From positions 19,533 through 83,532 of the forward strand of contig CACHJU010000006.1 in the NCBI GenBank assembly GCA_902580225.1: a stretch of DNA of 64,000 bases. Reading direction: 5' to 3'. The notes beneath the pieces were generated by a model, which did not search any database, was not told where the DNA came from, and worked only from the letters and a program-made list of their open reading frames with translations. Of the stretch, positions 37,869 to 62,225 are shown one piece after another. How positions within the stretch are numbered: position 1 is the stretch's first letter; each line of letters starts with the position of its first letter. The DNA is from an uncultured Verrucomicrobiota bacterium. Lineage in GTDB: Bacteria > Verrucomicrobiota > Verrucomicrobiia > Opitutales > Seribacteraceae. Position numbers and translations under genes: made by a program.

Positions 37869-38025
37869 CATCAATCACTGGACAGGATTTCACCCCTACA
37901 AAACCTTTGATCTTGAAGCTGGGAAGAAGATAACCTTTAAATTTCCTGATGGTTTCGCCGCCCATTGGATTCGTTTCAAATCCAATAAGGAAATTAAATC
38001 AACCGCTCAACTCATTTACAAATGA
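37846..38025 (+). pseudogene. Orphan C-terminal domain fragment out of frame with the preceding DUF1080 gene
   Basis: AEIDINHWTGFHPYKTFDLEAGKKITFKFPDGFAAHWIRFKSNKEIKSTAQLIYK then TGA 38023-38025; no convincing start. Confidence 0.6.
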
Positions 38026-39446
38026 CCAATAAAATATCCCTCCTCTTTTTAACATTTTTTGCAATGTCAGGATCAGCAAAACAAAATGTTGTATTCATCT
38101 TAGCAGACGATATGAGTCGGGACACCTGGGGTGCATACGGCGGAAAAGACTGTAAGACTCCAAACATCGATCAATTAGCCAGGGATGGAACGCGATTTGA
38201 TCGTGCCTATTGTACGGTGGCCATGTGTGCTCCCTTTAGGCAGGAACTTTACAGCGGAAGATCCCCCTGGCGAACCGGCACACTACCCAATCACTCAAAA
38301 TCAGTTTCCGGAACCAAAAGCATTGTTCATTACCTAAAACCCCTCGGTTACCGGGTTGCCCTGCTCGGCAAATCCCATGTGGGCCCAAATGAATGCTATC
38401 CATTTGAGCGCCTTGGAGAAGTAAGTAAAAAAGTGGATGCCAATCCTGAAATCCTGGATAAGGCAAAGGCATTTCTCGATGACTGTGAAAAAACAGAAGA
38501 TCCATTTTGCTTATTCATTGGATCTCATGATTCTCACGCTCCATTCACCACGGGTGACCCCTCATCATATGACGCCAAAAAAATTACGGTCCCATCCTAT
38601 TGGATTGATACGCCCGAGCTGAGGGAGGTTATGATTCAATACTACGCAGAGATCACCAATTTTGATCACTTAGTGGGAATGATGCGCAAGGAACTGGAAA
38701 AAAGAAATCTATGGAAAAATACCATTTTCATGGTATGCAGCGAACAGGGAACCCAGCTCCCCTTTGCGAAGTGGACCTGCTATGATAACGGCCTACATAC
38801 AGGATTGGTCGCCCACTGGCCCGGCCTTTCCAAACCTGGATCAGTTATAGATGAGCTTGTCTCCACTGCTGATATAACTCCCAGCTTGGTCGATGAACTG
38901 GGAGGCAAACTTAAAAAAGGTGCCGTGGATGGAAAAAGCTTCCTTAGCTTACTAAAAGGTGTGGAGGAACCGATACGTCAGTATGTATATGGGGCCTTTA
39001 CGAATTGTCGAATCATTGACAATCGGGAACGCATCTATCCGATCCGGGCCATTCGCGATAAAAGATACTCCCTGATTTACAATCCAAATCATAAATCCAT
39101 AACATCCAATGTTACGCTCACACAGGCACTAAAGATGATTGAGGACACCCAAATAAAACCCAAGGACCTCAATCCGTCTGGCTCCTGGGTGGCAAAGCCA
39201 AAGAAAACCAAAATGGAACAAGCACTCGTTCATAAATTGCATAACCGGGACGAGTTTGAATTATACGATTTACAAAAAGATCCATTTGAGATGAAAAATT
39301 TAGCGGGTAGTGCAAAGCACAAGAATGTTCAGCGAAGACTTAAATCTGCCTTAATGGCGAAACTAAAGGAATTAGAAGACAGCAATCCCATCAATACTGA
39401 AAAGGGATTTGTATCGGTTGGTAGCAAAAAAGGTAAGAAAAACTAG
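38022..39446 (+). CDS. Type I sulfatase (CAPFR motif)
   Basis: NVVFILADDMSRDTWGAYGG; AMCAPFRQELYSGRSPWRTG; LLGKSHVGP; VCSEQGTQLPFAKWTCYDNG. Confidence 0.9.
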   Translation: MTNKISLLFLTFFAMSGSAKQNVVFILADDMSRDTWGAYGGKDCKTPNIDQLARDGTRFDRAYCTVAMCAPFRQELYSGRSPWRTGTLPNHSKSVSGTKSIVHYLKPLGYRVALLGKSHVGPNECYPFERLGEVSKKVDANPEILDKAKAFLDDCEKTEDPFCLFIGSHDSHAPFTTGDPSSYDAKKITVPSYWIDTPELREVMIQYYAEITNFDHLVGMMRKELEKRNLWKNTIFMVCSEQGTQLPFAKWTCYDNGLHTGLVAHWPGLSKPGSVIDELVSTADITPSLVDELGGKLKKGAVDGKSFLSLLKGVEEPIRQYVYGAFTNCRIIDNRERIYPIRAIRDKRYSLIYNPNHKSITSNVTLTQALKMIEDTQIKPKDLNPSGSWVAKPKKTKMEQALVHKLHNRDEFELYDLQKDPFEMKNLAGSAKHKNVQRRLKSALMAKLKELEDSNPINTEKGFVSVGSKKGKKN

Positions 39447-40042
39447 TACGACTTGATCCAGTCGACTTGTAGTTTGAACGGTCCATCCTGCTTATCGTAG
39501 ATCATAAATTCGATACTATGGATCTTGGACTTGATCATTGGATACTCTTCTTTCGACAGCGGCCTCCCCCGCCAACTTACATCCATTTCATCAAAAGGAA
39601 TCTTTATCTCACGCCAACCTTTTAAATCACTATCAGTATTAAAATTACTACGGTAAGAAACAGACTTCCCTTCAACACGAACGCCCAATTTATAAGTTCT
39701 TCCATCTCCCTTGTACCGAATATGTAGTCCTGTTTTGTCTCCCAAATCAAAATCAGATGGTTTAGTGCGAATAGAAGAAAATCCACCCCCATTTGTATTG
39801 GTATTTCCGGAAAAGATTAAACGCTTCTTTTTAGAGGTAAATCCTCCTTTTGAACGACCGCCCATGACATTGTCATTAACGACAATCCAATTATGTTTTG
39901 GATCATCAGTAATAAAATCAAAGAGTAAGCTGCCTTTCTCCATTTGTTTTGTGTGTTTGGTAATTCCTGAGGACTTGGGAACTATGGCAAGATATGAAAG
40001 AGATATTAAAAAAATCGTTAGATTTAGGGATAAGTAATTCAT
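39443..40042 (-). CDS. Exported CIA30-like (CBM-like fold) domain protein
   Basis: N-terminal signal; FDFITDDPKHNWIVVNDNVMGGRSKGGF; GDGRTYKLGVRVEG; IPFDEMDVSWRGRPL. Confidence 0.82.
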   Translation of the reverse strand: MNYLSLNLTIFLISLSYLAIVPKSSGITKHTKQMEKGSLLFDFITDDPKHNWIVVNDNVMGGRSKGGFTSKKKRLIFSGNTNTNGGGFSSIRTKPSDFDLGDKTGLHIRYKGDGRTYKLGVRVEGKSVSYRSNFNTDSDLKGWREIKIPFDEMDVSWRGRPLSKEEYPMIKSKIHSIEFMIYDKQDGPFKLQVDWIKSY

Positions 40043-40879: not shown

Positions 40880-42136
40880 ATGAAAAAAATTCCTATTTCT
40901 CACACCCGCCGAAGTTTTCTTACAAAGTCAGCGACTGGGGCAACTGCAGCGACTATTCTTCCCCGTCACATTTTGGGTGCTCCCCATATTCCCCCATCTG
41001 AAAAATATGGTACTGCCCTGATAGGATGTGGAGGAAGAGGCCCGGGAACCTATTCTCAATTATGTAAGGGATTAAATGTCGAACTTGTCGGTGCCTGCGA
41101 TGTTAACCTCGATCGTGCTGAAAGATTCTCTCAAGCTAGAAGTAAAGGTAAAGCTGAAATTTATCAGGATTTCCGAAAACTTCTTGAGCGAAAAGACTTG
41201 GACTTGGTTGCGATTGCCACACCCCCTCATTGGCACACCAGTATATCCATCGCATCTGCAGAAGCCGGCATGGATGTTCTCTGCGAGAAACCGATGACCC
41301 GATTTGTCGCCGAAGGACGTGCAGTGGTTAACGCTTTCAAACGGTACGGACGGATTTTTCAGATCGGTACTTTCGGAAGGTTTGGCAGAAGCAAGGACAA
41401 ACACGCCGTGCTCAAACACAAGATTATGTCCAGTGGTCTACTCAAGGATTGCCGGGCAGTTCGTAAGAAAAAAGGTGGGTTGAAAGTGAAACAATGGAGT
41501 GGGACCCCAGGAATTGCTCCCCAGACAATTCCTGAAAATCTGGACTGGGACTTGTATTGCGGTCCTTCACCCTGGAAACCCTATGAGAGCAGAAGGACGG
41601 GTGGAACCCATCGTGGGTACTGGGACTATGAAGGCGGTGGAATGTGCGATATGGGACAGCATCACTTTGACCCTGAACAATGGACTTACGCAAAAGACTA
41701 TACCAGTCCAGTCAAGATTACCCCTTTCGCACCTCCGGCCCATCCGGAAGTAACTGGAATGTGGGCCTGGGTGGAACTCAAATATGCGGACGGCTTTAAA
41801 TTTGTTATGGAAAGTACTGAGTGGGGTCCATCGTATGAACAAGATGAGGTTCGCGATGTATCCATGAACGATCTCTCAATCGAAGATCAGAAAAAGATAA
41901 GTGAAATGCCTAACCCTGAACCGCTGCTTTCCTTTGCAGAAGCCGTAAAGCAGAGAAAAGAGGCAGGAGGACACCCTGAGGCGGCTCACCGGGCGGCCTG
42001 CATACTACATCTGGCCAACCTGGCCATTCGCCTCGGGCGTACACTTAATTACGATCCTGACAAGGAAATATTCATCAACGATGAGGAAGCTAACCGCTTC
42101 CTCAATCCCCCAATGAGTGCACCTTGGCGAGTCTAA
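40880..42136 (+). CDS. Gfo/Idh/MocA-family oxidoreductase, Tat-exported
   Basis: HTRRSFLTKSATGATAATILP; ALIGCGGRGPGTYSQL; CEKPMTRFVAEGRAVV; RIFQIGTFGRF. Confidence 0.93.
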   Translation: MKKIPISHTRRSFLTKSATGATAATILPRHILGAPHIPPSEKYGTALIGCGGRGPGTYSQLCKGLNVELVGACDVNLDRAERFSQARSKGKAEIYQDFRKLLERKDLDLVAIATPPHWHTSISIASAEAGMDVLCEKPMTRFVAEGRAVVNAFKRYGRIFQIGTFGRFGRSKDKHAVLKHKIMSSGLLKDCRAVRKKKGGLKVKQWSGTPGIAPQTIPENLDWDLYCGPSPWKPYESRRTGGTHRGYWDYEGGGMCDMGQHHFDPEQWTYAKDYTSPVKITPFAPPAHPEVTGMWAWVELKYADGFKFVMESTEWGPSYEQDEVRDVSMNDLSIEDQKKISEMPNPEPLLSFAEAVKQRKEAGGHPEAAHRAACILHLANLAIRLGRTLNYDPDKEIFINDEEANRFLNPPMSAPWRV

Positions 42137-42158
42137 ACCACAAATCCACTTCTTGCTG

Positions 42159-42989
42159 ATGAAAACAATCGAAATCATACAAGCCTTTCCACAGCCTGAC
42201 GGAAAGATACTCCGTACCATTGACAAAGACGCCTGTGAACAGGCAGTGGTGGACATCCTGAAAGGAGGAAAGCAAATCGTCCGGGAAATCGTTGACCTTA
42301 TTCTGGAACCGGGAAATGGCGACGATATCCGCCCTAGGCACGCTCTTCATGCCACCGCCATCCGGGTTGGAGGAAAAGAGAGAAAAATGGAAAGAAAAGA
42401 ATTCTCCTCCGTCTTAGCCGGGATGTTAACTGACGATCGTCCCCTCGCAGTTAAAGGATTCATCATCCGTCAGCTTCAGATTTGTGCCGGACCCGAACAG
42501 GCAGAAAAAATAGCTCCTTTTCTCACTAACCCGAATGAACATATTTATGAATACGCGGCTCAGGCATTGCAGGCGATTGGCGTGGGTACCGTGGTTCACT
42601 TTCGGAAAGCATACCCCGATGCCTCAGGAGATTGCAGACTCACCATTCTTCAGGCCCTCGGAGTTTTGGAAGACAAAAAATCCCGCGAGTACTTTTTAAA
42701 TGCAGTTGAGGATAAAGATCTGGAAATCCGTCTTGCAGGAATGTGGGGTCTTATGAAAATTGCATCCTCCAAGGATATGGGTGTTTTGCTTTCCCAATCG
42801 GAAAAGGAAAAAGGCTGGGGGCGAATCAAAGCAACCGCCTATTGCTTTGAACTCGCCGAAAAGCTAACTGTAAAAGGGCAGAAAGAAGAAGCCGGCAAGA
42901 TTTACAGACAGATCAAAAATTCACGAAAAGAAAAAGCAGATAACTATCTCCGCCAATCGGCCGACCTGGGGATATCTCTCCTTAAATAA
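42159..42989 (+). CDS. HEAT-repeat-like protein, no signal peptide
   Basis: Helical repeats: NPNEHIYEYAAQALQAIGVG, VEDKDLEIRLAGMWGLMKIAS; in-frame ATG 42159. Confidence 0.65.
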   Translation: MKTIEIIQAFPQPDGKILRTIDKDACEQAVVDILKGGKQIVREIVDLILEPGNGDDIRPRHALHATAIRVGGKERKMERKEFSSVLAGMLTDDRPLAVKGFIIRQLQICAGPEQAEKIAPFLTNPNEHIYEYAAQALQAIGVGTVVHFRKAYPDASGDCRLTILQALGVLEDKKSREYFLNAVEDKDLEIRLAGMWGLMKIASSKDMGVLLSQSEKEKGWGRIKATAYCFELAEKLTVKGQKEEAGKIYRQIKNSRKEKADNYLRQSADLGISLLK

Positions 42990-43008
42990 CCCTTCACCTA
43001 AGTTACTA

Positions 43009-44256
43009 ATGCGTTTATTTTTCCTCCCATTCATCCTTGTTCAATTAGTTCATTCCCAACCCATCCAATGGAACCAGTTCCGCGGACCCAATGGAGACGG
43101 GGATGCAGGTAAGGCCAATTTACCGATCCAATTTTCGGAAACTGAGAATTTAACCTGGAAAACCCCCATGCCTGGAAAAGCCTGGTCATCCCCGGTGGTA
43201 AAAGATGGAAAGGTGTGGATTACCAATGCCGAGGAAGACGGATTTAAAATGTGGGCAATTCAACTGGACTGGAAAACCGGTAAACTATTAAAAAAGGTTT
43301 TGGTTTTTGAAAACAAAGAACCCCAGTTTTGCCATCCAATGAACAGCTATGCCACCCCCACTCCTGTGATCGCCGGAAATCAGGTTTTCGTTCATTTTGG
43401 GTCCCATGGAACCGCTGCCCTGGACGCCAATACGGGAAGGAAAATTTGGGAAAGAAGGGATTTAAAGTGCGACCACTACCGGGGTGCAGCGGCTTCCCCC
43501 ATTCCCCACCTCGATACACTGATTATTCATTTCGACGGCCATGATTTCCAGTTTATTGTCTGCCTTAATCAGAAAACGGGAAAAACTATTTGGAAAAAAG
43601 AACGGGCCTATGACTTCAAAACTGACAATGGTGACCGGAAAAAAGCATACTGCACACCCAGCGTGATCGAACACAAGGGCCGCCTCGAACTTATCAGCCC
43701 GGGTGCCGTTGCCACCGAATCCAGAAATCCCCAAAACGGCGAATTGTATTGGACCGTGAGAACAGGTGGAATGAATTCCTCTTCCCGGCCAATTCTCAGA
43801 GACGGAATTATTTTTGTATTCTGCGGCATGGGTTCGATGTCCGCTATTAAACCGGGCGGAAAAGGGGATGTTGATGACACTCACCTGATTTGGAATCGTC
43901 GCAAAGTGGTGCCCAAAAAATCTTCGCCTCTTTTACTGGGAGATTATTTATTCATGGTATCAGACGAAGGCGTGGCCTCCTGCAATAATCCGAAGACCGG
44001 AGAAGTTTACTGGGCGGAACGCCTGGGCGTAAAGGGCCAGTGTGCCTCCTCTCCCATACACGCGAACGGGAATATTTACTCTTTTTCAAGTGCGGGTGAC
44101 TGCGTGGTATTTGCACCTGACCCCCAGGAACTCAAAGTTATCAGCCGCAATAAACTTGACAATGGTTGCATGGCATCTCCTGCAGTGGTCGGTAATTCTC
44201 TGCTTGTGAGAACCAAGGAAAACTTATATCGATTTGATCGGTCCGATAGGCAATAA
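43009..44256 (+). CDS. Secreted PQQ-like beta-propeller protein
   Basis: WNQFRGPNGDGDAGKANLPIQFSETENLTWKTPMPGKAWSSPVV; DANTGRKIWERRD; NPKTGEVYWAERLG. Confidence 0.9.
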   Translation: MRLFFLPFILVQLVHSQPIQWNQFRGPNGDGDAGKANLPIQFSETENLTWKTPMPGKAWSSPVVKDGKVWITNAEEDGFKMWAIQLDWKTGKLLKKVLVFENKEPQFCHPMNSYATPTPVIAGNQVFVHFGSHGTAALDANTGRKIWERRDLKCDHYRGAAASPIPHLDTLIIHFDGHDFQFIVCLNQKTGKTIWKKERAYDFKTDNGDRKKAYCTPSVIEHKGRLELISPGAVATESRNPQNGELYWTVRTGGMNSSSRPILRDGIIFVFCGMGSMSAIKPGGKGDVDDTHLIWNRRKVVPKKSSPLLLGDYLFMVSDEGVASCNNPKTGEVYWAERLGVKGQCASSPIHANGNIYSFSSAGDCVVFAPDPQELKVISRNKLDNGCMASPAVVGNSLLVRTKENLYRFDRSDRQ

Positions 44257-44266
44257 TTTTTAATAA

Positions 44267-45241
44267 ATGAAAAAAAAGATCCTCCTCATCAGTCTCCTGT
44301 TTAACGGGGTTTCCTTGTTTGCCAAAGATTCCTGGAAATCACAGCCCAATTGGTTAGAGCTTCCCGGCAATCGTGATAAAGTCGGAAATATGCATGGTGA
44401 TATTGCGGTAAGCTCAAATGGTGACATCTATGTAAGTGTGGGCGACCCCAAGGCCGGCTTGCAAGTTTATGGAGATAACGGAAAGTGGAAACGTAATGTT
44501 CCCAATGCCCCGAGTGATCTGCATGGCTTCGTTATAAAAAAAGAAGGAAAACAGGAATTTATTTATGCGGTTCGGGTAGGAGTAGGTGAACTCCTTAAAT
44601 TGACTCTCGACGGTAAAACTGTTTTGAAAATCTCCGCCTATTCCATTCCGGATGAATTCAAAAGAAAAGGCAAAGACGGAAAACCTTTCGTCCGGTTGAC
44701 TGGAGCCGATGTATCCGCAAATGGAGATATCTTTTTGACCGATGGTTATTCTTCCGATCATATTCACCGATTTGATAAAAAGGGTAAGTATTTAAACTCC
44801 TTTGGTGGAAAAAATGCACCCTATGGATTTCGCACCCTCCACAAACTAGTCATAGATTCACGTTTCAACCCAGCACGGATTATTGGGATGGATCGGGCTA
44901 ACAACCGAGTGGTCCATTTGGGACTCGATGGCAAGTTTATTGGCGTGGTGGAAGAAGGTCTTTTACTTCCAGCCTGCGTTCATATTCACGGTGACTGGGC
45001 GGTTATTGGAGAACTGCGGGGCCGCATATCAATCATTGATAAAAAGGGTGAGATTTATGCACAGGTGGGTGGAAATAATAAGAAAGATGAAATAGGTACC
45101 AACCGTACGCCTCCCGCGAAGTGGAGAGAAGGAATTGTCACTGCCCCTCATGGTATTTCCTGTAATTCCAAAGGTGATATATTTGTTGCTGAATGGAATA
45201 CAATCGGCCGGGTTCATCGATTTAACTATATTTCCAAATAA
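44267..45241 (+). CDS. Secreted NHL/six-bladed beta-propeller protein
   Basis: GDIYVSVGDPKAGLQVYGDNGKW; GDIFLTDGYSSDHIHRFDKKGKYLNSFGG; PHGISCNSKGDIFVAEWN. Confidence 0.85.
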   Translation: MKKKILLISLLFNGVSLFAKDSWKSQPNWLELPGNRDKVGNMHGDIAVSSNGDIYVSVGDPKAGLQVYGDNGKWKRNVPNAPSDLHGFVIKKEGKQEFIYAVRVGVGELLKLTLDGKTVLKISAYSIPDEFKRKGKDGKPFVRLTGADVSANGDIFLTDGYSSDHIHRFDKKGKYLNSFGGKNAPYGFRTLHKLVIDSRFNPARIIGMDRANNRVVHLGLDGKFIGVVEEGLLLPACVHIHGDWAVIGELRGRISIIDKKGEIYAQVGGNNKKDEIGTNRTPPAKWREGIVTAPHGISCNSKGDIFVAEWNTIGRVHRFNYISK

Positions 45242-45244
45242 ATT

Positions 45245-45865
45245 ATGCTTAAAAATACTCGACTTCACTCAATCCTTATCACATTACTTTGTCTTTTGTT
45301 TTCCCCACTTTTAGGGAAGCAGAAATCGACGAATAAAACCATTAATATTTTAAATGGCAATGATCTTAAAGGATGGAAAATACCCAAGGGCAATGAGGTT
45401 TCCAATTGGTATCAGGTAACCAATAATATCCTTGAAGTAAGAAGTGGGCCCAAGAAAAAAGGCTCAGTTCTATGGACTGAAAAGGAATACCAAGACTTTG
45501 AAGTAAGTTTGGGATTTCGTTTTATTGACGGAATCATCGATTCAGGTATCCATCTAAGAAATTCAGATCAGATCCAAATTGGAATTTCTGGATCCCTAAA
45601 AAGAGATATGACCTGCTCCCCATACATTCCGGGTAAAGGTTATCCAGTTGAGGCCAAGAATATTAAAAAACTCCTCAAACCGAAAGGTTGGAACCAAATG
45701 CGCATTCGAGCAATTGGTCAAAATTATACCGTATGGTTACAGGAAGAAGAGGTAATGAAGTATAAATCATCCTCGGCTGAAGAAAAAGGACCTATAGGCA
45801 TCCAACTGCACGGAAATCGAAACATGAAAATTGATTTCAAGGAGATTTTAATTATGGAACTGTAG
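45245..45865 (+). CDS. DUF1080 protein
   Basis: INILNGNDLKGWKIPKGNEVSNWYQVTNNILEVRSG; DSGIHLRNSDQIQIGISG; GIQLHGNRNMKIDFKEI. Confidence 0.85.
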   Translation: MLKNTRLHSILITLLCLLFSPLLGKQKSTNKTINILNGNDLKGWKIPKGNEVSNWYQVTNNILEVRSGPKKKGSVLWTEKEYQDFEVSLGFRFIDGIIDSGIHLRNSDQIQIGISGSLKRDMTCSPYIPGKGYPVEAKNIKKLLKPKGWNQMRIRAIGQNYTVWLQEEEVMKYKSSSAEEKGPIGIQLHGNRNMKIDFKEILIMEL

Positions 45866-46054
45866 CACGATGGAAGATTCTAGCTCGTTCGAATAGGGAA
45901 AGCTCTTCATAGTTTTTATTGTCAAATATGAAACTGCAAGTTCTCTACTAGCGGGGCATAATGAATTGCCTTGCAAGGAAAGAAATAAGAAAGAAATCAC
46001 AACATATTATGATTCAGGCTTGCCCTTTTTAAAGCTCAGCCAAATTCTTTTTTC

Positions 46055-47194
46055 ATGCCAAGCAAATCTCCGGTTACTCGATTACTTTTAGACCTTGTCT
46101 CTATACCAAGTATAAACCCATCCCTTGGCCAATCGAACTCCAACTTAACCGGAGAGGAAGGGGTAGCTAACCTTCTTGCCGATCAAGCTAACAAATTAGG
46201 AATAGAAATCCAAAGACAGGCAGTTTTACCGGGTCGGAAAAATATTCTACTCCGCTTGAAGCCCAAAGGTAAAATTAAATCGCGGGTTATGTTAGCTCCC
46301 CACATGGATGTGGTACCCGCAGATGAAAACTCATTTAAACCCAAAATTAAAAAGGGTAAATTACATGGAAGAGGTGCATGCGATACGAAAGGTTCGATGG
46401 CAGCCTTCTTTCAGGCGTTTTGTGATCTGGCAAGAAACGGAGCCTTACCGCTCAGTACCGAAATTATCTTCGTGGGATTAGTCGATGAGGAATTCGCACA
46501 GGCAGGCTCTCGAAAACTAGCTAAGTCTGGCCCTCAAGCCGATCTTGCGATTGCGGGTGAACCCACCGAGCTAAAATTGGTTACTGCCCACAAAGGTAAC
46601 TCCTGGTTACAACTTAAAACCACCGGGGTGGCCGCTCATGGTGCCACTCCAAAGAATGGTAAAAATGCGATCGAAACCATGACTCCCATTCTAAAAACCC
46701 TATTTCATGATTATCCAAAAATATTAAGCAAGCGAACCCACCCGTTACTCGGTTCTCCCACCCTGAATATTGGAAAAATTTCGGGGGGCAACCAACCCAA
46801 TATTGTCGCCGACAAATGCACCATTGATTTGGATAGACGAACGATTCCCGGAGAGAACGAAGATTTAATCAAAAAAGAGCTCATGGCTCTATTCCGAAAA
46901 GAAAAACTGTCCGCCCCCGATTGCTCAAGTATTCGTTCTGTACCATGTCCACCCTTGGATACAGATCCAAATCTTCCCTTCGTTCAAACTCTGCTTCGGG
47001 CATCCAAAAAAAGAAAAACTCATGGGGTATCCTACTTTACGGATGCCTCTCCAATCGCAATGGGTGGAACTCCTGCAGTTGTTTTTGGTCCAGGTAACAT
47101 TGCACAAGCACACGCAAGGGATGAATATATAGATATTTTACAATTGGAAGAAGCTTACAAAATAATCGGTGCATTTTTGAAAAATATGCCATAA
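46055..47194 (+). CDS. M20-family peptidase/deacylase (ArgE/DapE-like)
   Basis: VMLAPHMDVVPADENSFKPKIKKGKLHGRGACDTKGSMAAF; GLVDEEFAQAGSRKL; GEPTELKLVTAHKG. Confidence 0.92.
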   Translation: MPSKSPVTRLLLDLVSIPSINPSLGQSNSNLTGEEGVANLLADQANKLGIEIQRQAVLPGRKNILLRLKPKGKIKSRVMLAPHMDVVPADENSFKPKIKKGKLHGRGACDTKGSMAAFFQAFCDLARNGALPLSTEIIFVGLVDEEFAQAGSRKLAKSGPQADLAIAGEPTELKLVTAHKGNSWLQLKTTGVAAHGATPKNGKNAIETMTPILKTLFHDYPKILSKRTHPLLGSPTLNIGKISGGNQPNIVADKCTIDLDRRTIPGENEDLIKKELMALFRKEKLSAPDCSSIRSVPCPPLDTDPNLPFVQTLLRASKKRKTHGVSYFTDASPIAMGGTPAVVFGPGNIAQAHARDEYIDILQLEEAYKIIGAFLKNMP

Positions 47195-47289
47195 TTTTTT
47201 CCATACCCCGAGTTCTCGAATCTGGAAACTTCTTAAAACTTCGAAAAATGTTTTGATTCCAAATCAATTTATCATTCAAATTCAATACT

Positions 47290-47958
47290 ATGATAAAATC
47301 ATTTACCCTACTCTCTATTTTCCTGCTTATAAATTTACCTACTTACGGAGAAGAATCGAACCATTGGGATATTCTTTTCGATGGTAAAAACTTAAACAAT
47401 TTCCGTGGTTACAAAAAAGAAATGCATGGTAACGCATGGACTGTTGAAGATAAGGTCATTAAGTTAAAGAAAGAAAAAGGGAAAATCGGGGGAGATTTGA
47501 TGACCAAAAAAAAGTATCAGTTTTTTGAACTGCAATTGGAATGGTGCCTACCTAAACCGGGAAATAGTGGAATTATTTTTCGTGTTGGGGAAACCGATGG
47601 CCCGGCTTACAAAACGGGTCCGGAGATGCAGATTTTTCATAAAATGAAACCGGGAGGTAAAACTGATACCGGATCCTGCTACGCATTATATCCACCCAAG
47701 GTGGCAAGTATGAATAAAATTGGGCAATGGAACAAAATTCGCCTTATAATCAAACCGGGGGATCATGTAGAACACCATATGAACGGACAGCTACTGTGCA
47801 GATATTCTATAGGAAGTAAGGATTGGCAAAGTAGAGTGCAGGCAAGCAAATTCAAGAGTTGGGAATTGTTCGGCAAAGTTGAAAAGGGTCATATCTGCTT
47901 TCAGGATCATGGGAATGAAATTTGGTTTAAAAATGTTCGTGTTAAAACACTAAAATAA
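47290..47958 (+). CDS. DUF1080 protein
   Basis: WDILFDGKNLNNFRGYKKEMHGNAWTVEDKVIKL; ELQLEWCLPKPGNSGIIFRVGE; ICFQDHGNEIWFKNVRVK. Confidence 0.9.
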   Translation: MIKSFTLLSIFLLINLPTYGEESNHWDILFDGKNLNNFRGYKKEMHGNAWTVEDKVIKLKKEKGKIGGDLMTKKKYQFFELQLEWCLPKPGNSGIIFRVGETDGPAYKTGPEMQIFHKMKPGGKTDTGSCYALYPPKVASMNKIGQWNKIRLIIKPGDHVEHHMNGQLLCRYSIGSKDWQSRVQASKFKSWELFGKVEKGHICFQDHGNEIWFKNVRVKTLK

Positions 47959-47968
47959 AAAATTTGTT

Positions 47969-49195
47969 ATGATAAAAAATTTGATTTTTTGGACTGGCAT
48001 TGGCTCTTTACTAACCCAGTCACTTTCGGCATCTGAATGGCGTTCTCTTCGAGGTCCCACCGGGATGGGTATTTATTCTGGTGAGATGCCGATTGAATGG
48101 CATTCAAGGGATATTCTATGGAGCAAAGAAATCGAAGGGAAAGGACAATCTTCCGTGGTGCAAGCGGGTTCTGTAATATTTGTAACTTCGGCACAGGAAA
48201 ATAATCTCCGTTTTTTGTACTGTCTCGAGAAAGAAAAAGGTGATTTGTTGTGGAAGAGAGAGATAAGAAACGATCGTGTCGAGTCGATCCACAGAATGAA
48301 TGGATGGGCCACCGCAACTCCAGTTACCGATGGAAATTATGTGATCGTTTTTTTTGGTCCCGCTGGCATGCATTGTTTCGATCTTGAAGGAAACAAAAAA
48401 TGGTCCTTGGATTTGGGAGAATTTCCCAGTCATTGGGGGGTTGCGGCATCGCCCATTATTCATAATGGACTGGTTATTCAAAATTGCGATGCAATTGGAA
48501 AATCCCGACTGGTTGCCATTCATATTGAAACTGGAAAAATTGCCTGGGATACTCCAAGAATGGAGAAACCGAAAGGCGGATGGTCCACACCGATTATCAT
48601 TACATCACAAGGAAAAAAACAACTGGTGTTAAATGGTGAGTTTGGGGTTAAAGGCTATTCGGTTAAAGATGGAAAGGAACTATGGTTCTGTGAAAGTTTT
48701 AATGGAAGGGGGTCACCGGTTCCTTTTTATGATGGCAAACTACTCTTTGTGATTAATGGAAAACCTGGAGACTTATATGCAGTCGACCCAACCGGCAGAG
48801 GCAATATCACCAAAACCCATATGAAATGGCATTCCCGCCGGAATGGCGGCCGGGATTTGCCTTCTCCCGCATCGGTGAAAGGAATGGTTTTTGCCACCAG
48901 TATGAGTGGAATAATCACTTGCTATGATGCCAAGTCTGGAAAAATTTACTGGGTCGACCGGTTAAAAGGAGCTTTTTCAGGTTCGCCCTCTGTTTCATCC
49001 GATTTTTATTACATTCAAAATGAAGCGGGTACTACATTTGTCATTGAACCAGACAGGAAAAAGCTCGTGATTAAATCCCAAAATTCCCTATGTGAAGACG
49101 GAACCGAAGTATTTAGGTCTACACTATCTCCAATTGAAAATAAAATTTATACCCGTTCTCAATCGAAATTATACTGCATTCATAAAAATAAATGA
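47969..49195 (+). CDS. Secreted PQQ-like beta-propeller protein
   Basis: EWRSLRGPTGMGIYSGEMPIEWHSRDILWSKEIEGKGQSSVV; YDAKSGKIYWVDRLKGAFSGSPSV. Confidence 0.9.
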   Translation: MIKNLIFWTGIGSLLTQSLSASEWRSLRGPTGMGIYSGEMPIEWHSRDILWSKEIEGKGQSSVVQAGSVIFVTSAQENNLRFLYCLEKEKGDLLWKREIRNDRVESIHRMNGWATATPVTDGNYVIVFFGPAGMHCFDLEGNKKWSLDLGEFPSHWGVAASPIIHNGLVIQNCDAIGKSRLVAIHIETGKIAWDTPRMEKPKGGWSTPIIITSQGKKQLVLNGEFGVKGYSVKDGKELWFCESFNGRGSPVPFYDGKLLFVINGKPGDLYAVDPTGRGNITKTHMKWHSRRNGGRDLPSPASVKGMVFATSMSGIITCYDAKSGKIYWVDRLKGAFSGSPSVSSDFYYIQNEAGTTFVIEPDRKKLVIKSQNSLCEDGTEVFRSTLSPIENKIYTRSQSKLYCIHKNK

Positions 49196-49277
49196 GTGAA
49201 TCGTAGGAATTTTCAAGCCTTCGAAATTTGTTCTCGGGATTTAAAAAAATAACCATGATAACCAACTATTTGTGCTT

Positions 49278-50672
49278 ATGAAAAACCATCCAGTCAGTTC
49301 AGCTTTATCTCGTCGTCAATTTCTAGGAAACTCCGGAAGAATTGCATCTGCCAGTGCTCTTGCGGGAATTGCCTTACCCGTTGTGCATGGACAAAGTGGA
49401 GACGAGACCAAACTTGCATTAGTAGGTTGCGGTGGCAGGGGAACTGGGGCCGCTAGCAATGCACTTTCAGTTTCACAGGCTAACGGACCGGTTAAACTTG
49501 TGGCCATGGCGGATGTGAATAGTGGAAAGCTTGAGCGTAGTTACAATGGTTTAATTAATAAGCACAAAGATAAAGTCAAAGTATCTGAAGATCAAAAGTT
49601 CATTGGCTTTGGCGGCTATGCCAAAGCGATGGATTTACTTGACCCCGGTGATGTGGTAATTTTCACCACTCCCTGTGCCTTTCGTTGGGTTCACTTTGAA
49701 TATGCGATCAAAAGAGGGTTAAATGTATTTATGGAAAAACCAGTCACTCCGGACGGCTATTCTTCCCGTAAAATGCTAGAGTTAAATGAAGAGGCCAAAA
49801 AAATAAACCTAAAGGTTGGAATCGGTTTAATGTGCAGACACAGTCAGGCAAGACGGGAACTTAAGGATCGAATTGTAAACGGGGAACTTGGAGAAATCCT
49901 CAACATGCGTGCCTACCGGATGCAAGGCCCTATTGCTTCATGCTTTTCAGATAAAAAACCAGAAAATGAAAAAGAACTGGCCTATCAAATAAGTAATTTT
50001 CATAGCTTTCTGTGGTTAAGTGGCGGTTCGTTTAGCGATTTTTTTATCCATAATATAGACGAGTGTTGCTGGATGAAAGGAATGTGGCCGGTTAAATGTC
50101 AGGCACAGGGTGGACGGCACTATAGGGGAGAAAAAGTTGATCAAAATTTTGATAATTATACAGTTGAATATACCTTTCCTGACGAAACCAAACTTTATTT
50201 CCATGGTAGAAATATGTCAGGTTGCCGTCAAGAATTTGCCAGCCATGCACACGGAACAAAAGGGTATGCTTTAATCTCTGGTCCAGGAGGGCACCGCTCA
50301 CAGGCTCGCATTCACAAAAAGCAATCTCCTGATAGTGATTTAGCTTGGATGTTTGGCATGAATGAAGGGGGTCGACCCACGAGGGAAACCAATCCATATC
50401 AGGATGAATGGGAAAGGCTAATGGATGCAATCCGAAACAATAAACCACACAATGAGGTTGAAAGAGGCGTGCAGGCAAGTGTGGTGACATCGATGGGACG
50501 GATGGCTGCCCATACGGGTACTGAAGTAAGTTATGATCAAATGCTCAACTCCAACCATATTTTCGGACCTGGAGTTGAAAATCTAACCATGGATTCTAGT
50601 CCTCCTCTCCTCGCTAACGCAGATGGCACTTACCCCGTCCCTCAACCCGGTATCAAAAAGACTGAATATTGA
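49278..50672 (+). CDS. Gfo/Idh/MocA-family oxidoreductase, Tat-exported
   Basis: SRRQFLGNSGRIASASALAG; LALVGCGGRGTGAASNAL; FMEKPVTPDGYSSRKML; VGIGLMCRHSQARRELKDRI. Confidence 0.93.
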   Translation: MKNHPVSSALSRRQFLGNSGRIASASALAGIALPVVHGQSGDETKLALVGCGGRGTGAASNALSVSQANGPVKLVAMADVNSGKLERSYNGLINKHKDKVKVSEDQKFIGFGGYAKAMDLLDPGDVVIFTTPCAFRWVHFEYAIKRGLNVFMEKPVTPDGYSSRKMLELNEEAKKINLKVGIGLMCRHSQARRELKDRIVNGELGEILNMRAYRMQGPIASCFSDKKPENEKELAYQISNFHSFLWLSGGSFSDFFIHNIDECCWMKGMWPVKCQAQGGRHYRGEKVDQNFDNYTVEYTFPDETKLYFHGRNMSGCRQEFASHAHGTKGYALISGPGGHRSQARIHKKQSPDSDLAWMFGMNEGGRPTRETNPYQDEWERLMDAIRNNKPHNEVERGVQASVVTSMGRMAAHTGTEVSYDQMLNSNHIFGPGVENLTMDSSPPLLANADGTYPVPQPGIKKTEY

Positions 50673-51028: not shown

Positions 51029-51835
51029 ATGAAATCGAAATCACTTTTAATCTTTTCAACCTTAACCTTTCTTTTTGGTGTTTCTTATGGTCAGTCCAAG
51101 CAAAAGCTAGTTTGGTCAGATGAATTTAATGGAGAATCTCTCGATTATTCAAAATGGGGAGTCGAAGAGAACGCTTACGGTGGCGGAAACAATGAACAGC
51201 AGATTTATCGATGGGATCCCAAAAATCTGCGTATTGAAGATGGAAATCTCGTGATCGAAGCTCATAAAGACAATCCCAATGTGGCGGGAACGACTCGGCC
51301 TTATTCATCGGCTCGAATTCGAAGCAAGCACCGAGGAGACTGGAAATACTGCCGAGTAGATGTTAGGGCAAAATTACCGGTCGGTAAAGGAATGTGGCCC
51401 GCAATCTGGATGCTTCCCACAGATGAGAAATACGGTGGTTGGGCCGCAAGTGGTGAAATTGATATTATGGAATTGGTAGGACATGAACCATCCACATACC
51501 ATGGTACACTTCACTATGGAGGTGGATGGCCTAAAAACAAACATACTGGAAAAGAATTCAAACTTAAATCCGGTACTTTCGCTGACGATTTTCATATTTT
51601 TTCAATCTTTTGGGAAAAAGGAAAAATCATCTGGGGCATAGATGGGAAACCATGGCAAACGCAGGAGAAATGGGATTCGGAAAAAGGAAGTTTCCCTGCC
51701 CCCTTTGATCAACGATTTCATCTTTTGATCAATTTGGCGGTTGGAGGCCGCTGGCCAGGTAATCCAAATGACCAAACCAAATTTCCCGCCAAAATGCTCG
51801 TCGATTATGTAAGAGTTTATCAATTCGAAAAATAA
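51029..51835 (+). CDS. GH16-family beta-glucanase/laminarinase-like secreted enzyme
   Basis: LVWSDEFNGESLDYSKW; GEIDIMELVGHEPSTYHGTLHYGG; LLINLAVGGRWPGNP; VDYVRVYQ. Confidence 0.95.
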   Translation: MKSKSLLIFSTLTFLFGVSYGQSKQKLVWSDEFNGESLDYSKWGVEENAYGGGNNEQQIYRWDPKNLRIEDGNLVIEAHKDNPNVAGTTRPYSSARIRSKHRGDWKYCRVDVRAKLPVGKGMWPAIWMLPTDEKYGGWAASGEIDIMELVGHEPSTYHGTLHYGGGWPKNKHTGKEFKLKSGTFADDFHIFSIFWEKGKIIWGIDGKPWQTQEKWDSEKGSFPAPFDQRFHLLINLAVGGRWPGNPNDQTKFPAKMLVDYVRVYQFEK

Positions 51836-53382: not shown

Positions 53383-53536
53383 CTGGATCGATCTTTAGCC
53401 TACTCCTTAAATTCGGTCAATGCACCATACCATTCAAAAGCAGTGAAATGAATCATCCTTCAGATAATATCTTAAAGATAACCCGATAATTAGAATGGAC
53501 AACGAGATCGGAACCATCAATTTTTATTCTTTTATC

Positions 53537-55126
53537 ATGAAAATAATTGTTTCACTTTTTATTAGCCTGTCTCTTTGGGGACAGTCCTTTGCTCACGATC
53601 CAGCTTCCGAAATGGCAACCGCAGCCAAAAATTTCCTCGATTCCCTCGATGAATCTGCGAAAAAGAAGGCTTTTTTTCCCTTCACTGACAAAGAAAGGGA
53701 AAACTGGCATTTCTTCCCGAGTTCCTTTGTCAGTCCTAACGGACGCATAGGACTTTCGGTCAAGGAAATGACTTCCCCCCAACGAACAATGGCCCAAACC
53801 CTCCTTTCCTCCGCCCTTAGCCATCGTGGTCAAATTGAAGCCTCCACGGTTATCCTTCTTGAACAAATCCTTTACGAGAGAGAGGAACGCGAGATGAGAA
53901 ACCCGGATCTTTACACATATGCCGTCTTTGGCCGACCCGACAAGGCAGGAACCTGGGGTTGGCGCTTCGAGGGTCACCACCTCTCCCTGAATTTTTCTCT
54001 GGTCAACGGTCGGATATTTTCCATTACCCCCAGTTTCTGGGGAGCCAGTCCGGCCAAAGTAACTGAAGGGAAACACGCCGGACTTCGGGTTCTTGCCGAT
54101 GAGGAAAAGAAAGCCTTCAAATTCCTCAAATCCCTTTCCCCACCTCAAAAGAAAATGGCCATCCTTTCCAACAAGGCACCCAGAGAGATATATTCTGGAC
54201 AGGATAACACAGTCAATCATTCGACTTTCCTGCCGCCGAAAGGCCTCCCCATCACCAAAATGAATCCCCGCCAAAAAGGATGGCTATCTGAATTGGTCGA
54301 TGTCTACACTGTTAAACACCGATCCCGGGCTGTTGAACAAATAGCAGGTAACAAACCCCTCCTCCACCCCACCGAAACTTTTTTCGTATGGTCCGGAGGA
54401 CTGTCCCCTGAGACCGGTCATTACTACCGGATTCAGACGCCAGATTTTCTTTTTGAATATGCCAATACTCAAAACAATGTGAATCATGTCCATGCGGTTT
54501 GGAGGGATTTTAAGGGCGATTTTGGAAGGGATCTACTAGCTGAGCACTACGCCGAAAATCATTCTTCAGGAAAAGAATGGAAAAGTATGTTTGACGGGAA
54601 AACACTCAAGGGCTGGAAGCCGAATGAAAACGAGGATTCCTTTAGCGTTAAAAATGGATGTATCGTGGCTAATGCACCCGGCCGTTGCCATCTTTTTTAC
54701 CAGACAAAAAAACCGTTCAAAAACTTTGAGTTCAAGGCCGAGGTGATGACCCTTCCACAATCAAATGCCGGCGTTTATTTCCACACCCGTTTTCAGGATG
54801 AAGGTTGGCCCAAGGCAGGGTTTGAATGTCAGGTCAACAATACCTACCACGATCCCAAAAAGACCGCCAGTATTTACGGTGTTCAGGATTGTCTCGAAGC
54901 ACCCGCCAATGATGATGAATGGTTTGACCTTTACATCAAAGTAAATGGTAAGCATGTCATTACCAAGGTAAACGGTAAGGTCATTTCGGATTGGACCCAA
55001 CCGGATGACTGGAAACAGGGCGGAAATTTTGAGCGGATGTTGGGCGAAGGTACTTTTGCTCTTCAAGGGCATGATCCTGGAAGCACGGTTCTTTTCCGCA
55101 ATCTCTTTGTTAAAAGACTGCCTTAA
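53537..55126 (+). CDS. DUF3500-DUF1080 fusion protein
   Basis: N-terminal DUF3500-like WGWRFEGHHLSLNFSLVNG...TPSFWGASPA; C-terminal DUF1080 WKSMFDGKTLKGWKPNENEDSFSVKNGCIVAN; signal peptide from ATG 53537. Confidence 0.85.
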   Translation: MKIIVSLFISLSLWGQSFAHDPASEMATAAKNFLDSLDESAKKKAFFPFTDKERENWHFFPSSFVSPNGRIGLSVKEMTSPQRTMAQTLLSSALSHRGQIEASTVILLEQILYEREEREMRNPDLYTYAVFGRPDKAGTWGWRFEGHHLSLNFSLVNGRIFSITPSFWGASPAKVTEGKHAGLRVLADEEKKAFKFLKSLSPPQKKMAILSNKAPREIYSGQDNTVNHSTFLPPKGLPITKMNPRQKGWLSELVDVYTVKHRSRAVEQIAGNKPLLHPTETFFVWSGGLSPETGHYYRIQTPDFLFEYANTQNNVNHVHAVWRDFKGDFGRDLLAEHYAENHSSGKEWKSMFDGKTLKGWKPNENEDSFSVKNGCIVANAPGRCHLFYQTKKPFKNFEFKAEVMTLPQSNAGVYFHTRFQDEGWPKAGFECQVNNTYHDPKKTASIYGVQDCLEAPANDDEWFDLYIKVNGKHVITKVNGKVISDWTQPDDWKQGGNFERMLGEGTFALQGHDPGSTVLFRNLFVKRLP

Positions 55127-55140
55127 TTAATATTCTTCAA

Positions 55141-56448
55141 ATGAAAGCCTTTTTGATCAGTTCGCTCATTCTTCCCCTTCTCGGATTTGCTCAAAATTGG
55201 CCCCAATGGCGCGGCCCGCACGCATCCGGTCATGCACCCAAAGGAAACTATCCCAAAGTCTGGTCTTCCCAAAAAAATATCCTCTGGAAAACAAGCCTAC
55301 CCGGACGGGGTCATTCGTCTCCAGTTCATGACGGGAAAAATATATGGATAACCACCGCATTGGAAACCCCCGCATCAGAAGAGGAGAAGCAAGAGAGACT
55401 TAAAGAAAATAATGGATTACCCTCTGTTACGGTTCTTTCCAAGTTGAGTCTACACGCCCTTAAAATTAACCCCATCTCTGGAAAAATTCTTAAAAATATT
55501 AAGATCTTCGAAAAAAGTCAGCCTCAATGGGTTCATAAATTAAACAGCTATGCATCCCCCACTCCGTTTTTGGAAAATGGAAAATTATACCTTCATTTTG
55601 GTGCCTACGGGAATGCATGTATTGATTCCGAATCAGGTAAGATCATTTGGAAGAACGATGAAAAAAAACTCTGGATCATGCATGAGAACGGCCCGGGAAG
55701 TTCTCCCATTCTATGGAAAACCCTAATGGTTTTTCATTTGGATGGAAGCGACCGCCAAAGCATTGTCGCTCTTCATAAAGATAGTGGCAAAATTGCCTGG
55801 CAGACACCCCGAAGCGGGGAAATGAGGGAAAATCCACAATTCCAAAAATCCTACTCCACACCGATTATTAAAGAATTCAATGGAAAGACCGTTTTAATCT
55901 CGTGTGCAGCTGACTGGGTATATGGGTATGACCCCCAAAACGGTGAAGAACTCTGGAAAATTAAATACGGTATTCTCGGATTTTCTAATGTTGCTCGACC
56001 AGTTACTGGTCATGGTATGATTTATCTATCCACCTGCTTCTCAAAAGCGGAAATCCATGCCTATCAATACGAGGGTCTGGCTACCCCGAAACTTGTCTGG
56101 AAAATGACTAAAGGAGCACCTAAAATGCCTTCACCTATTCTCATAGGGGAACAACTCTATGTGGTAAATGATGGAGGAATTCTCTCTGTTGTGAATGCTA
56201 AAACCGGCGAACTTGACTGGCGGGAAAGACTCGATGGCGAATTCAGTGCCTCCCCAACCTATGCCAACGGACTCCTTTACCTGTCTGACCAAGCAGGAAA
56301 GACCACCATTATACAGCCTGGAAATAGCTTAAATATACTTTCCGAAAATGAATTGGAAGGCAGCCCACATATGGCTTCTTTTGCCCCCTTTAAAAGCTCT
56401 TTCCTTATTAGAACAGATAACACTCTTTATCGGGTTGGGGAAAAGTGA
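55141..56448 (+). CDS. Secreted PQQ-like beta-propeller protein
   Basis: NWPQWRGPHASGHAPKGNYPKVWSSQKNILWKTSLPGRGHSSPVH; NAKTGELDWRERLDGEFSASPTY. Confidence 0.9.
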   Translation: MKAFLISSLILPLLGFAQNWPQWRGPHASGHAPKGNYPKVWSSQKNILWKTSLPGRGHSSPVHDGKNIWITTALETPASEEEKQERLKENNGLPSVTVLSKLSLHALKINPISGKILKNIKIFEKSQPQWVHKLNSYASPTPFLENGKLYLHFGAYGNACIDSESGKIIWKNDEKKLWIMHENGPGSSPILWKTLMVFHLDGSDRQSIVALHKDSGKIAWQTPRSGEMRENPQFQKSYSTPIIKEFNGKTVLISCAADWVYGYDPQNGEELWKIKYGILGFSNVARPVTGHGMIYLSTCFSKAEIHAYQYEGLATPKLVWKMTKGAPKMPSPILIGEQLYVVNDGGILSVVNAKTGELDWRERLDGEFSASPTYANGLLYLSDQAGKTTIIQPGNSLNILSENELEGSPHMASFAPFKSSFLIRTDNTLYRVGEK

Positions 56449-57840
56449 TCAACTTTCTCGAAGACCGGAGAACACATTACCGGTTGGCTTTGGCGGTATA
56501 GAACTAAGCCATTTTTGAAGCAGGTTTTTCATCCGTTTGACCGTTTCCAAATTCTTTGCAGCCAGGTCACTACTTTCCAGCGGATCATCAACCAAATCGA
56601 AGAGTTCCACATGGGACTGATCTTTATTAAGCACCAGTTTCCACTGCTCAGAAACCACGGCATAGGCAACCCAATGATCTGGTTTTGCCTGGTTAGCGGG
56701 CCAGGGTGCAGACATTCTCCAAAAGATTGGTTTCTTCCGCAGTTTGTTTCCCTGCCCCATTAAAGTTGAGACTTGGCTGATTCCATCTGATTGGTACGAC
56801 TTGGGCAATTTCACATTCCCAAGTTCACAAAAAGTGGGCAACAAATCGACCGCTGACAGGACCGAGGTTTTATCCACTTTCCCCGCAGCAATTTTCCCGG
56901 GCCAACGGGCAATAAAGGGAACCCCGATACCGCCTTCCAGCAAAGCCCCTTTATAAGCACGTCGCCCTCCTGTAATCCCCTTCGCTGCACCGATCCCATA
57001 TCCCGGACCGGTTGCTGAATCATAACTCAGGGTAATGGGAGAATTCGGAGACCCCCTGGCCGGCCCGTTATCCGAGCTAAAAATAACCAGGGTATTATCA
57101 GAAATTTTCATCTCGTCCAGAGCATTCAACAATTGACCGATTCTCAGGTCCGCATGGTACAAGGTGGCCGCATAAATATTGTCCGCCTCCGGTAAATCGG
57201 GAAAAAGTTTCTGCAATTTGGGATCTACATGAAAGGGTGTGTGCGGTTCATGAATCCATAAATTGATAAAAAATGGTTTTCCACTCTCCTTGCTTTTTTT
57301 CATGAATGGAATTGCACTCTTCACATCATCGTGCACAAACATTTGTGGCCCAGAACAATTATAGGACCCATAATCATCATAGCCATATTCAGTGAGAAAC
57401 GGAGCATCCGGAATCATATCATTTGCCAGGTGCCATTTTCCATAATGTGCAGTGGCATATCCAGCTTTTTTGAGAAATTTTGGTAACAAGGGGGCTTTGG
57501 TATCCAGCCAATCAGGCATATTGCGCCTCTGATTGCTTGGCACCCATGCAAAGTGCCCGTCAATATTATAACGGGCAGGAAAATGCCCGGTCATCACTGC
57601 GGTCCGACTGGGTGAACACACACCGCTTGCCACCGTAAAACGATAAAAATCAGTCCCCTCCTTGGCCAGTCGGTCAATGTTCGGCGTCTTCAAATAAGGA
57701 TGTCCATGGCAACCCAGATCACCCCATCCCCAGTCATCCGCGAAAATAAAAACAATGTTGGGTGAATCTTTTTCAGCATGAAGAGAGAAGGTGATAAGAG
57801 CCAAAAACAGGAGGGAAAAACAGGAGATGAATGAAGTCAT
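56449..57840 (-). CDS. Type I sulfatase
   Basis: [73 protein letters not shown]. Confidence 0.95.
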   Translation of the reverse strand: MTSFISCFSLLFLALITFSLHAEKDSPNIVFIFADDWGWGDLGCHGHPYLKTPNIDRLAKEGTDFYRFTVASGVCSPSRTAVMTGHFPARYNIDGHFAWVPSNQRRNMPDWLDTKAPLLPKFLKKAGYATAHYGKWHLANDMIPDAPFLTEYGYDDYGSYNCSGPQMFVHDDVKSAIPFMKKSKESGKPFFINLWIHEPHTPFHVDPKLQKLFPDLPEADNIYAATLYHADLRIGQLLNALDEMKISDNTLVIFSSDNGPARGSPNSPITLSYDSATGPGYGIGAAKGITGGRRAYKGALLEGGIGVPFIARWPGKIAAGKVDKTSVLSAVDLLPTFCELGNVKLPKSYQSDGISQVSTLMGQGNKLRKKPIFWRMSAPWPANQAKPDHWVAYAVVSEQWKLVLNKDQSHVELFDLVDDPLESSDLAAKNLETVKRMKNLLQKWLSSIPPKPTGNVFSGLRES

Positions 57841-62177: not shown

Positions 62178-62225
62178 ACCCTTAATTTCAAGCCAGCCTT
62201 GATTAACCCAACCCTACTTAAAACA

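Follow-up and report, generated by a model that had tools for sequence, protein, structure and literature searches.

Exported proteins of a marine Opitutales bacterium that probably break glycosidic bonds after oxidation of the sugar, with a DUF3500::DUF1080 fusion

A stretch of 64,000 nucleotides (the window) from a member of the marine Opitutales (Verrucomicrobia) encodes a conserved group of exported proteins whose probable task is to cleave glycosidic bonds once the sugar has been oxidised. The general chemistry of an oxidise-then-cleave route is already known; the pairing of DUF3500 with DUF1080 in one protein gives a testable function for the obscure DUF3500. This genome holds many DUF1080 proteins and many PQQ-like propellers, and both, like DUF3500, are poorly explained. 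All gene families placed here by a preliminary description of the DNA are present where it put them and each named family is confirmed by Pfam, although its two modules overlooked an M20 gene (46055-47194). The genes are as follows.

38022..39446, + strand: sulfatase (PF00884), the upstream neighbour, kept in part of the genus
39443..40042, - strand: CIA30/CBM11-like secreted protein
40880..42136, + strand: GFO1, Gfo/Idh/MocA oxidoreductase (PF01408 and PF19051), Tat-type signal HTRRSFLTKS
42156..42989, + strand: HEAT-repeat protein (Pfam), without signal peptide
43009..44256, + strand: PQQ1, secreted BamB-like beta-propeller (Pfam)
44267..45241, + strand: NHL-repeat propeller (Pfam), fused to DUF1080 in relatives
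45245..45865, + strand: DUF1080a, divergent subtype (DSG..R, QIQIG, GIQLHG)
46055..47194, + strand: M20 family, ArgE/DapE-type deacylase, without signal peptide, conserved in the locus
47290..47958, + strand: DUF1080b, retaining NSGI, PExQI and QDHG
47969..49195, + strand: PQQ2, secreted PQQ-like propeller
49272..50672, + strand: GFO2, Gfo/Idh/MocA (PF01408 barely above cut-off, and PF22725), Tat-type signal LSRRQFLGNSG
51029..51835, + strand: GH16 glycoside hydrolase
53537..54562, + strand: DUF3500 domain (PF12006) of the DUF3500::DUF1080 fusion, matching ApmL/Amc20 in sequence and fold
54563..55126, + strand: DUF1080 domain of the same fusion, signature variant NAG..H, LQGHD
55141..56448, + strand: PQQ3, PQQ-like propeller, kept next to DUF3500::DUF1080 in relatives
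56449..57840, - strand: sulfatase, conserved downstream neighbour
62199..62915, + strand: DUF1080c, like the first domain of PDB 4jqt (by eye)
62928..63590, + strand: DUF1080d, subtype with ECQI and LQDHG, found by the whole-genome search

The two modules were thought to repeat the same families. The families do occur in both, but the copies are old paralogues: GFO1 and GFO2 share 27% identity, confined to the N-terminal half, PQQ1 and PQQ2 28%, and DUF1080a and DUF1080b 23%. A recent duplication of the modules is ruled out by these values of 23-28%. Gene order is largely kept in Opitutales MAGs, at 56-93% identity, and clustering is also above chance: there are six Gfo/Idh-DUF1080 pairs no more than 5 kb apart against 1.5 expected, and seven PQQ-DUF1080 pairs against 1.7, under a uniform model and with most pairs coming from this locus. 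The genes form a neighbourhood conserved within a single family of marine Opitutales, and the chances are about even that it is catabolic and partly accessory.

That the Gfo/Idh and DUF1080 proteins belong together is borne out by this conserved order, by NHL::DUF1080 fusions within the family and the DUF3500::DUF1080 fusion, and by an association that reaches across the phylum. Downstream sequence was available for 19 distant GFO1 loci. A HEAT-domain protein comes next in 12 of them, and in seven loci that protein carries DUF1080 as well; one distant relative fuses an AP_endonuc_2 TIM barrel to HEAT and DUF1080. The HEAT protein at 42156..42989 is homologous to the N-terminal part of the phylum's HEAT proteins beside GFO1, some of which bear DUF1080. 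A single-sequence scan of genome contigs with this protein gave no match, and an alignment-based scan gave 15 loci. Within the genus its gene was detected in eight of 27 genomes (many are incomplete), and the rest of the locus persists in others. The lack of a signal peptide on the HEAT protein here speaks against a keto-sugar reading.

Both Gfo/Idh proteins carry Tat-type signals, as had been described, and both keep the NAD-binding residues on which the original proposal depended, with the Rossmann motif and EKP intact. The GFO1 motifs G.GG.G, EKP and DMGqH..DP are kept across 33 homologues, and GCGGRG, EKP and SDF.IHNID of GFO2 are kept in four. The best solved matches of GFO1 are 8tdf and 8tdh (E 9e-24 and 7e-22) and DgpA (E 1e-18), and its top NCBIfam match is the model for BT_2158 glycoside 3-dehydrogenase (NF058561), below cut-off: GFO1 scores 134-135 bits, over its N-terminal half only, and GFO2 36-37 bits, against a cut-off of 750. 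As membership of the BT2158-type family takes 750 bits over the whole protein, neither qualifies. Two genes of the same genome outside the window reach 403 and 309 bits at nearly full length, and one of them adjoins DUF1080 and TIM-barrel genes. These better-scoring genes, and the scores of GFO1 and GFO2, count against a keto-sugar reading. The preliminary interpretation as a whole is supported in part. DgpA among the nearest solved relatives of GFO1, together with intact NAD and EKP motifs, supports a keto-sugar route, but both Gfo/Idh proteins fail the 3-dehydrogenase model. The nearest solved relatives of GFO2 are inositol dehydrogenases rather than 3-dehydrogenases. Eight orthologous loci in other families are without a DUF1080 or PQQ neighbour, and this weakens the case that GFO2 is a 3-dehydrogenase acting with DUF1080.

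The seven DUF1080 domains counted earlier in the window are all there (starts 10172, 37191, 45245, 47290, 53537, 62199 and 62928), each above the PF06439 cut-off, and the genome, which is 67% complete, holds 21 matches. QxH of the signature is kept in all seven and NSGI, PExQI and QDHG in DUF1080b, but NSG..R is altered in three: at 37191 (NAG..R), at 45245 (DSG..R) and in the 53537 fusion (NAG..H). Within the locus it is DUF1080b that comes nearest to solved DUF1080 structures (E about 1e-26 to 5e-33); the domains at 45245 and in the 53537 fusion show weak similarity to solved members, and their changed signature residues are a point against a keto-sugar reading. A DUF1080 protein, BT2157, is a 3-ketotrehalose hydrolase (PMC9007349). 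Overall the DUF1080 signature is largely kept. What had been called hydrolysis would probably be an elimination followed by a hydration.

For DUF3500 there is a single match among solved structures, to the dehydratase ApmL/Amc20 (PDB 9x86). It covers the whole domain in sequence (HMM E 1.8e-76) and in fold (Foldseek E 1.3e-20), with GHH and HxH conserved, so that profile, fold and both motifs agree with an ApmL-type dehydratase. ApmL is an enzyme of antibiotic biosynthesis, whereas DUF3500 here is secreted and fused to DUF1080. The fusion occurs in 22 of 30 retrieved DUF3500 loci, with a propeller adjoining in 18. Stand-alone DUF3500 elsewhere had neither Gfo/Idh nor DUF1080 in the stretches examined of 20 neighbourhoods; these rule out DUF3500 as a general partner of either and stand against a keto-sugar reading. 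It is suggested only tentatively that DUF3500 is a family of keto-sugar dehydratases, and that the secreted fusion, partnered by a PQQ-like propeller, is a two-step enzyme that would remove water or a substituent from the oxidised sugar and then cleave or rehydrate it, an oxidative-cleavage variant found mainly in this marine Opitutales family. Should the locus work as proposed, DUF3500 would acquire a function open to testing with 3-keto sugars from known dehydrogenases.

The PQQ-like propellers, at first taken for possible dehydrogenases, are unlike them. They score at most 40 bits against the PQQ dehydrogenase model TIGR03075 (cut-off 480), a search for a vicinal cysteine (CC) pair in them found none, and the modelled fold of PQQ1 is BamB-like, its top 50 fold matches being BamB, YxaL and tetrathionate hydrolase. 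On these three counts a PQQ dehydrogenase role of the propellers is rejected. PQQ1 differs from those fold relatives in its linkage to DUF1080 genes, and a role in outer-membrane assembly is without support.

Taken as a whole, a keto-glycoside cleavage reading, with oxidation by GFO1, cleavage by DUF1080, a second step by DUF3500 and non-redox propellers, has roughly an even chance of being correct. In the periplasm, Tat-exported GFO1 with bound NAD would oxidise a sugar hydroxyl, most likely at C3, on an oligosaccharide or a small glycoside. Secreted DUF1080 proteins would then cleave the keto-glycoside, probably through elimination and rehydration and not through direct hydrolysis, and a Gfo/Idh protein may recycle the keto-sugar or NADH, so that the route can be redox-neutral. 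DUF3500 fused to DUF1080 may act on these oxidised sugars as a second dehydratase or lyase. The propellers, PQQ-like and NHL alike, would be non-redox partners that bind ligands or serve as scaffolds, and neighbouring sulfatases may prepare substrates. If so, these bacteria cleave glycosides by an oxidative, non-classical route that is overlooked when glycosidases are counted. The conserved neighbourhood and the three fusion types narrow the proteins for co-expression to a few.

The locus resembles the Bacteroides pathway of the BT2156-BT2160 type (BT2158 dehydrogenase, BT2157 DUF1080) in its exported Gfo/Idh/MocA and DUF1080 proteins and in the redox activation of sugars that is proposed. Neighbourhood and fusions agree in encoding the two together. 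It differs in that its Gfo/Idh proteins fall below the BT2158 family cut-off and in adding HEAT, NHL, PQQ-like propellers and DUF3500. The Bacteroides cluster includes a TIM-barrel member; the whole-genome search found no TIM-barrel (AP_endonuc_2) lyase or isomerase partner on contig 6, and its absence from the window locus is a further point against a keto-sugar reading. Closer to the Bacteroides type is a cluster on contig 1 of the same genome, with a Tat-Gfo/Idh, DUF1080 and a Tat TIM barrel. BT2158 acts in the periplasm as a glycoside 3-dehydrogenase (PMC11300592). In the lactose route of Caulobacter, as in the one proposed here, 3-oxidation takes place in the periplasm and a DUF1080 protein acts next, but the LacABC dehydrogenase is membrane-bound and not a Tat-exported Gfo/Idh (PMC9007349). 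The OGE/CGE beta-eliminases share the elimination chemistry on 3-keto-glucosides that may operate here, but are TIM-barrel Mn enzymes, not DUF1080 (PMC10628242). Secreted DUF1080 proteins also abound in Thermogutta and other planctomycetes, PVC bacteria too, although for THTE_1561 direct hydrolysis of xanthan is proposed, without a Gfo/Idh-linked cluster (PMC5673643).

Other readings of the same genes are less probable. It is doubtful that most DUF1080 domains here are jelly rolls that bind carbohydrate without catalysis, with the propellers as their surface scaffolds and the Gfo/Idh proteins engaged in unrelated sugar or inositol oxidation. DUF1080 does overlap the carbohydrate-binding family CBM66 (PMC5673643), signature residues are changed in the copies linked to DUF3500 and NHL, and the affinities and unlinked orthologues of GFO2 fit an unrelated oxidation; the retained motifs of DUF1080b and its match to solved structures argue for catalysis, and DUF1080-bearing HEAT proteins follow GFO1 across the phylum. 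It is very unlikely that the locus is a patchwork of paralogue-rich secreted families with no joint pathway, its synteny reflecting slow rearrangement in a small family: the patchy HEAT gene, the M20 gene inside the locus and the unlinked GFO2 of other families could be so explained, but NHL, DUF3500 and HEAT have each been fused to DUF1080 separately, and the GFO1-HEAT linkage is phylum-wide.

The preliminary description went further: a sulfated polysaccharide would be depolymerised mainly in this way, with desulfation in the periplasm, then oxidation at C3 and cleavage of the keto-glycoside. This full route seems unlikely, if less so than a patchwork. In its favour are about 80 sulfatase genes in the genome and a modest statistical link between sulfatases and DUF1080: for 10 of the 21 DUF1080 matches a sulfatase lies no more than 3 kb away, where 14% would be expected (p 3e-4 under an assumption of independence). 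But the two share gene islands, so their proximity is not specific, and the characterised systems found have disaccharides and small glycosides as their substrates (PMC9007349, PMC11300592). The window is indeed poor in recognisable glycosidases, with two, the number given before, GH16 at 51029 and a GH43-like protein at 35662 whose label was assigned by eye and which matches nothing in Pfam and NCBIfam; two are nevertheless present, and the count is for the window of a genome 67% complete.

Two smaller points concern individual genes. The M20 protein passes the ArgE/DapE model TIGR01910 (221.5 bits, cut-off 217.6) and lies under the cut-off of the acetylornithine deacetylase equivalog. The DUF3500::DUF1080 gene (53537-55126) has a longer ATG start at 53495.

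Domain searches of the window found each of the families named in the preliminary description in place, together with an M20-family gene between the two modules that it had left out; a methyltransferase gene further along is listed with them:

40880-42136, GFO1, Tat-signal Gfo/Idh/MocA oxidoreductase of module 1
42156-42989, HEAT gene
43009-44256, PQQ1, PQQ-like propeller
44267-45241, NHL gene
45245-45865, DUF1080a
46055-47194, M20-family gene, ArgE/DapE type
47290-47958, DUF1080b
47969-49195, PQQ2, PQQ-like propeller
49272-50672, GFO2, Tat-signal Gfo/Idh/MocA oxidoreductase of module 2
52075-53382 (-), DNA cytosine-5 methyltransferase, with GH16 on one side and the DUF3500 fusion on the other
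53537-55126, DUF3500::DUF1080 fusion
55141-56448, PQQ3, PQQ-like propeller

A relative (L018) has a homologue of the methyltransferase at the same place, ahead of the DUF3500 fusion. The modules do share their family content, as had been claimed, but they are old paralogues with 23-28% identity: PQQ1 and PQQ2 are 28% identical, DUF1080a and DUF1080b 23%, and GFO1 and GFO2 27% over the N-terminal half only, Pfam assigning the C-terminal domain to PF19051 in GFO1 and to PF22725 in GFO2.

Counting the window's own genome, 14 of 75 relatives carry a match to the HEAT gene, and these belong to a single family; an alignment scan places the carriers among Opitutales/Opitutia genomes, for the most part MAGs. 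These genomes for the most part retain the order GFO1-HEAT-(extra DUF1080)-PQQ1-NHL-DUF1080a-M20-DUF1080b-PQQ2-GFO2; in some a sulfatase lies between DUF1080a and M20, and in others single genes are absent or moved. The extra gene, a secreted DUF1080 after HEAT in many relatives (L025 9028-9759, with equivalents among L021-L029), is absent there in the window. In other genomes of the family (L221, L228-L230) the fetched stretch shows PQQ1-DUF1080a-M20-PQQ2-GFO2 or DUF1080-M20-GFO2 but lacks GFO1-HEAT, which makes that pair a variable front part of the locus.

Action of exported GFO1 and DUF1080b on oxidised sugars, the core of the route proposed earlier, is supported, and for the remaining proteins less so; desulfation of a polymer would be a hypothetical further part of that route. 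The NAD, EKP and DMGqH..DP motifs of GFO1 are kept in 33 homologues, and DUF1080b matches solved structures at E about 1e-26 to 5e-33. Among solved structures GFO1 is closest to 8tdf and 8tdh, which stem from work on non-classical glycosidases in gut metagenomes, with DgpA next. GFO2 is closest to inositol dehydrogenases, and at L212-L219, where other families carry an orthologue 56-61% identical to it, the fetched stretches hold neither a DUF1080 nor a PQQ gene. QxH is retained in all seven DUF1080 domains of the window; NSG..R is altered in three of them (37191, 45245 and the copy fused to DUF3500), the last two of which match solved structures only weakly. BT2157, a Bacteroides DUF1080 protein, hydrolyses 3-ketotrehalose, and a Caulobacter member is a putative 3'-ketolactose hydrolase (PMC9007349); a Thermogutta member is a proposed xanthan-backbone glycosidase (PMC5673643).

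Against the model of the glycoside 3-dehydrogenase BT2158, GFO1 scores 134-135 bits (750 required), over the N-terminal half only. Much higher scores go to two genes elsewhere in the genome, with 403 bits for one on contig 26 and 309 bits for one on contig 1. The former adjoins a protease-like protein with a DUF1080-matching stretch (L232 7466-9748), and inspection by eye of its neighbourhood revealed no further pathway gene. The latter belongs to the following cluster:

G000 (the source genome) contig 1, 138771-143561 (L099 6715-11616), Tat-exported Gfo/Idh, DUF1080 and TIM-barrel protein, among sulfatases

Its DUF1080 has the full signature and its TIM-barrel protein a Tat-like N-terminus. 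This cluster, outside the window, is the genome's better candidate, and its best, for the classical 3-keto-glycoside pathway. That general pathway is already known; what is new in the window's locus is the propeller and DUF3500 partners.

The suggestion that the propellers are dehydrogenases failed. The predicted structure of PQQ1 (pLDDT 85) matches BamB, YxaL and tetrathionate hydrolase, with no PQQ dehydrogenase among the 50 best solved matches; PQQ1-3 have no vicinal cysteines and score at most 40 bits against the PQQ-dehydrogenase model (cut-off 480). We infer that they bind ligands or serve as scaffolds and have no redox role. Contig 60 (L106) has a further DUF1080-PQQ pair, and a second DUF1080 lies close by.

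The most useful new lead is the fusion of DUF3500, which matches a dehydratase, to DUF1080. DUF3500 and DUF1080 form a single protein in 22 of 30 DUF3500 loci, a PQQ-like propeller adjoining in 18 of the 22. The predicted DUF3500 structure (pLDDT 86) gave one significant solved match in Foldseek, 9x86, which is ApmL, a dehydratase from the amipurimycin pathway (28% identity; E 1.3e-20; TM 0.87, normalised to the target's length); a profile search linked the two at E 1.8e-76, with GHH and HxH retained. In that pathway a glucuronosyl nucleoside gives rise to the amipurimycin core (PMC11188666). The family may not share one chemistry, since a fungal DUF3500 protein is a proposed dioxygenase (PMC12388069). 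Twenty other DUF3500 neighbourhoods have no Gfo/Idh and no DUF1080 in the fetched stretches, and the link is therefore nearly confined to the window's family; the one case outside it is in another family of the same order (L115). A DUF3500-like gene (L025 11911-12987; 26.3 bits, just under the cut-off) directly precedes GFO1, as do similar genes in related genera.

Several relatives encode NHL and DUF1080 as one polypeptide (L025, where Pfam shows it, and L231), and further NHL frames of 511-560 aa have a length that fits this fusion. GFO1 has a match at E <= 1e-60 in 26 of 241 genomes sampled across the phylum. Twenty neighbourhoods were fetched, of which L079 stops right after GFO1, leaving 19; four genomes give two loci each, so that not all are independent. 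A HEAT-domain protein directly adjoins GFO1 in 12 of the 19, seven of these proteins carrying one or two DUF1080 domains and some bearing F5/8-type (galactose-binding-like) domains; the sole TIM-barrel case is a HEAT::AP_endonuc_2::DUF1080 fusion directly after GFO1 (L085 10849-14859). By eye, most of their N-termini look like signal peptides. The window's HEAT protein has no signal peptide in its sequence; one could speculate that it is co-exported with the Tat-carried GFO1.

The genome holds 85 sulfatase matches, fragments among them. It is 2.36 Mb and 67% complete, the window being part of contig 6, and it has 21 DUF1080 matches, seven of the domains in the window. Ten of the 21 lie within 3 kb of a sulfatase (14% expected; p 3e-4 under independence), which is modest evidence because both families share the same islands. 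At 2086-3119 of the window an interrupted sulfatase reading frame has three stops in its second piece, being either a pseudogene or an assembly error, and an acyltransferase-3 membrane protein at 3590-5230 carries ankyrin repeats mid-protein.
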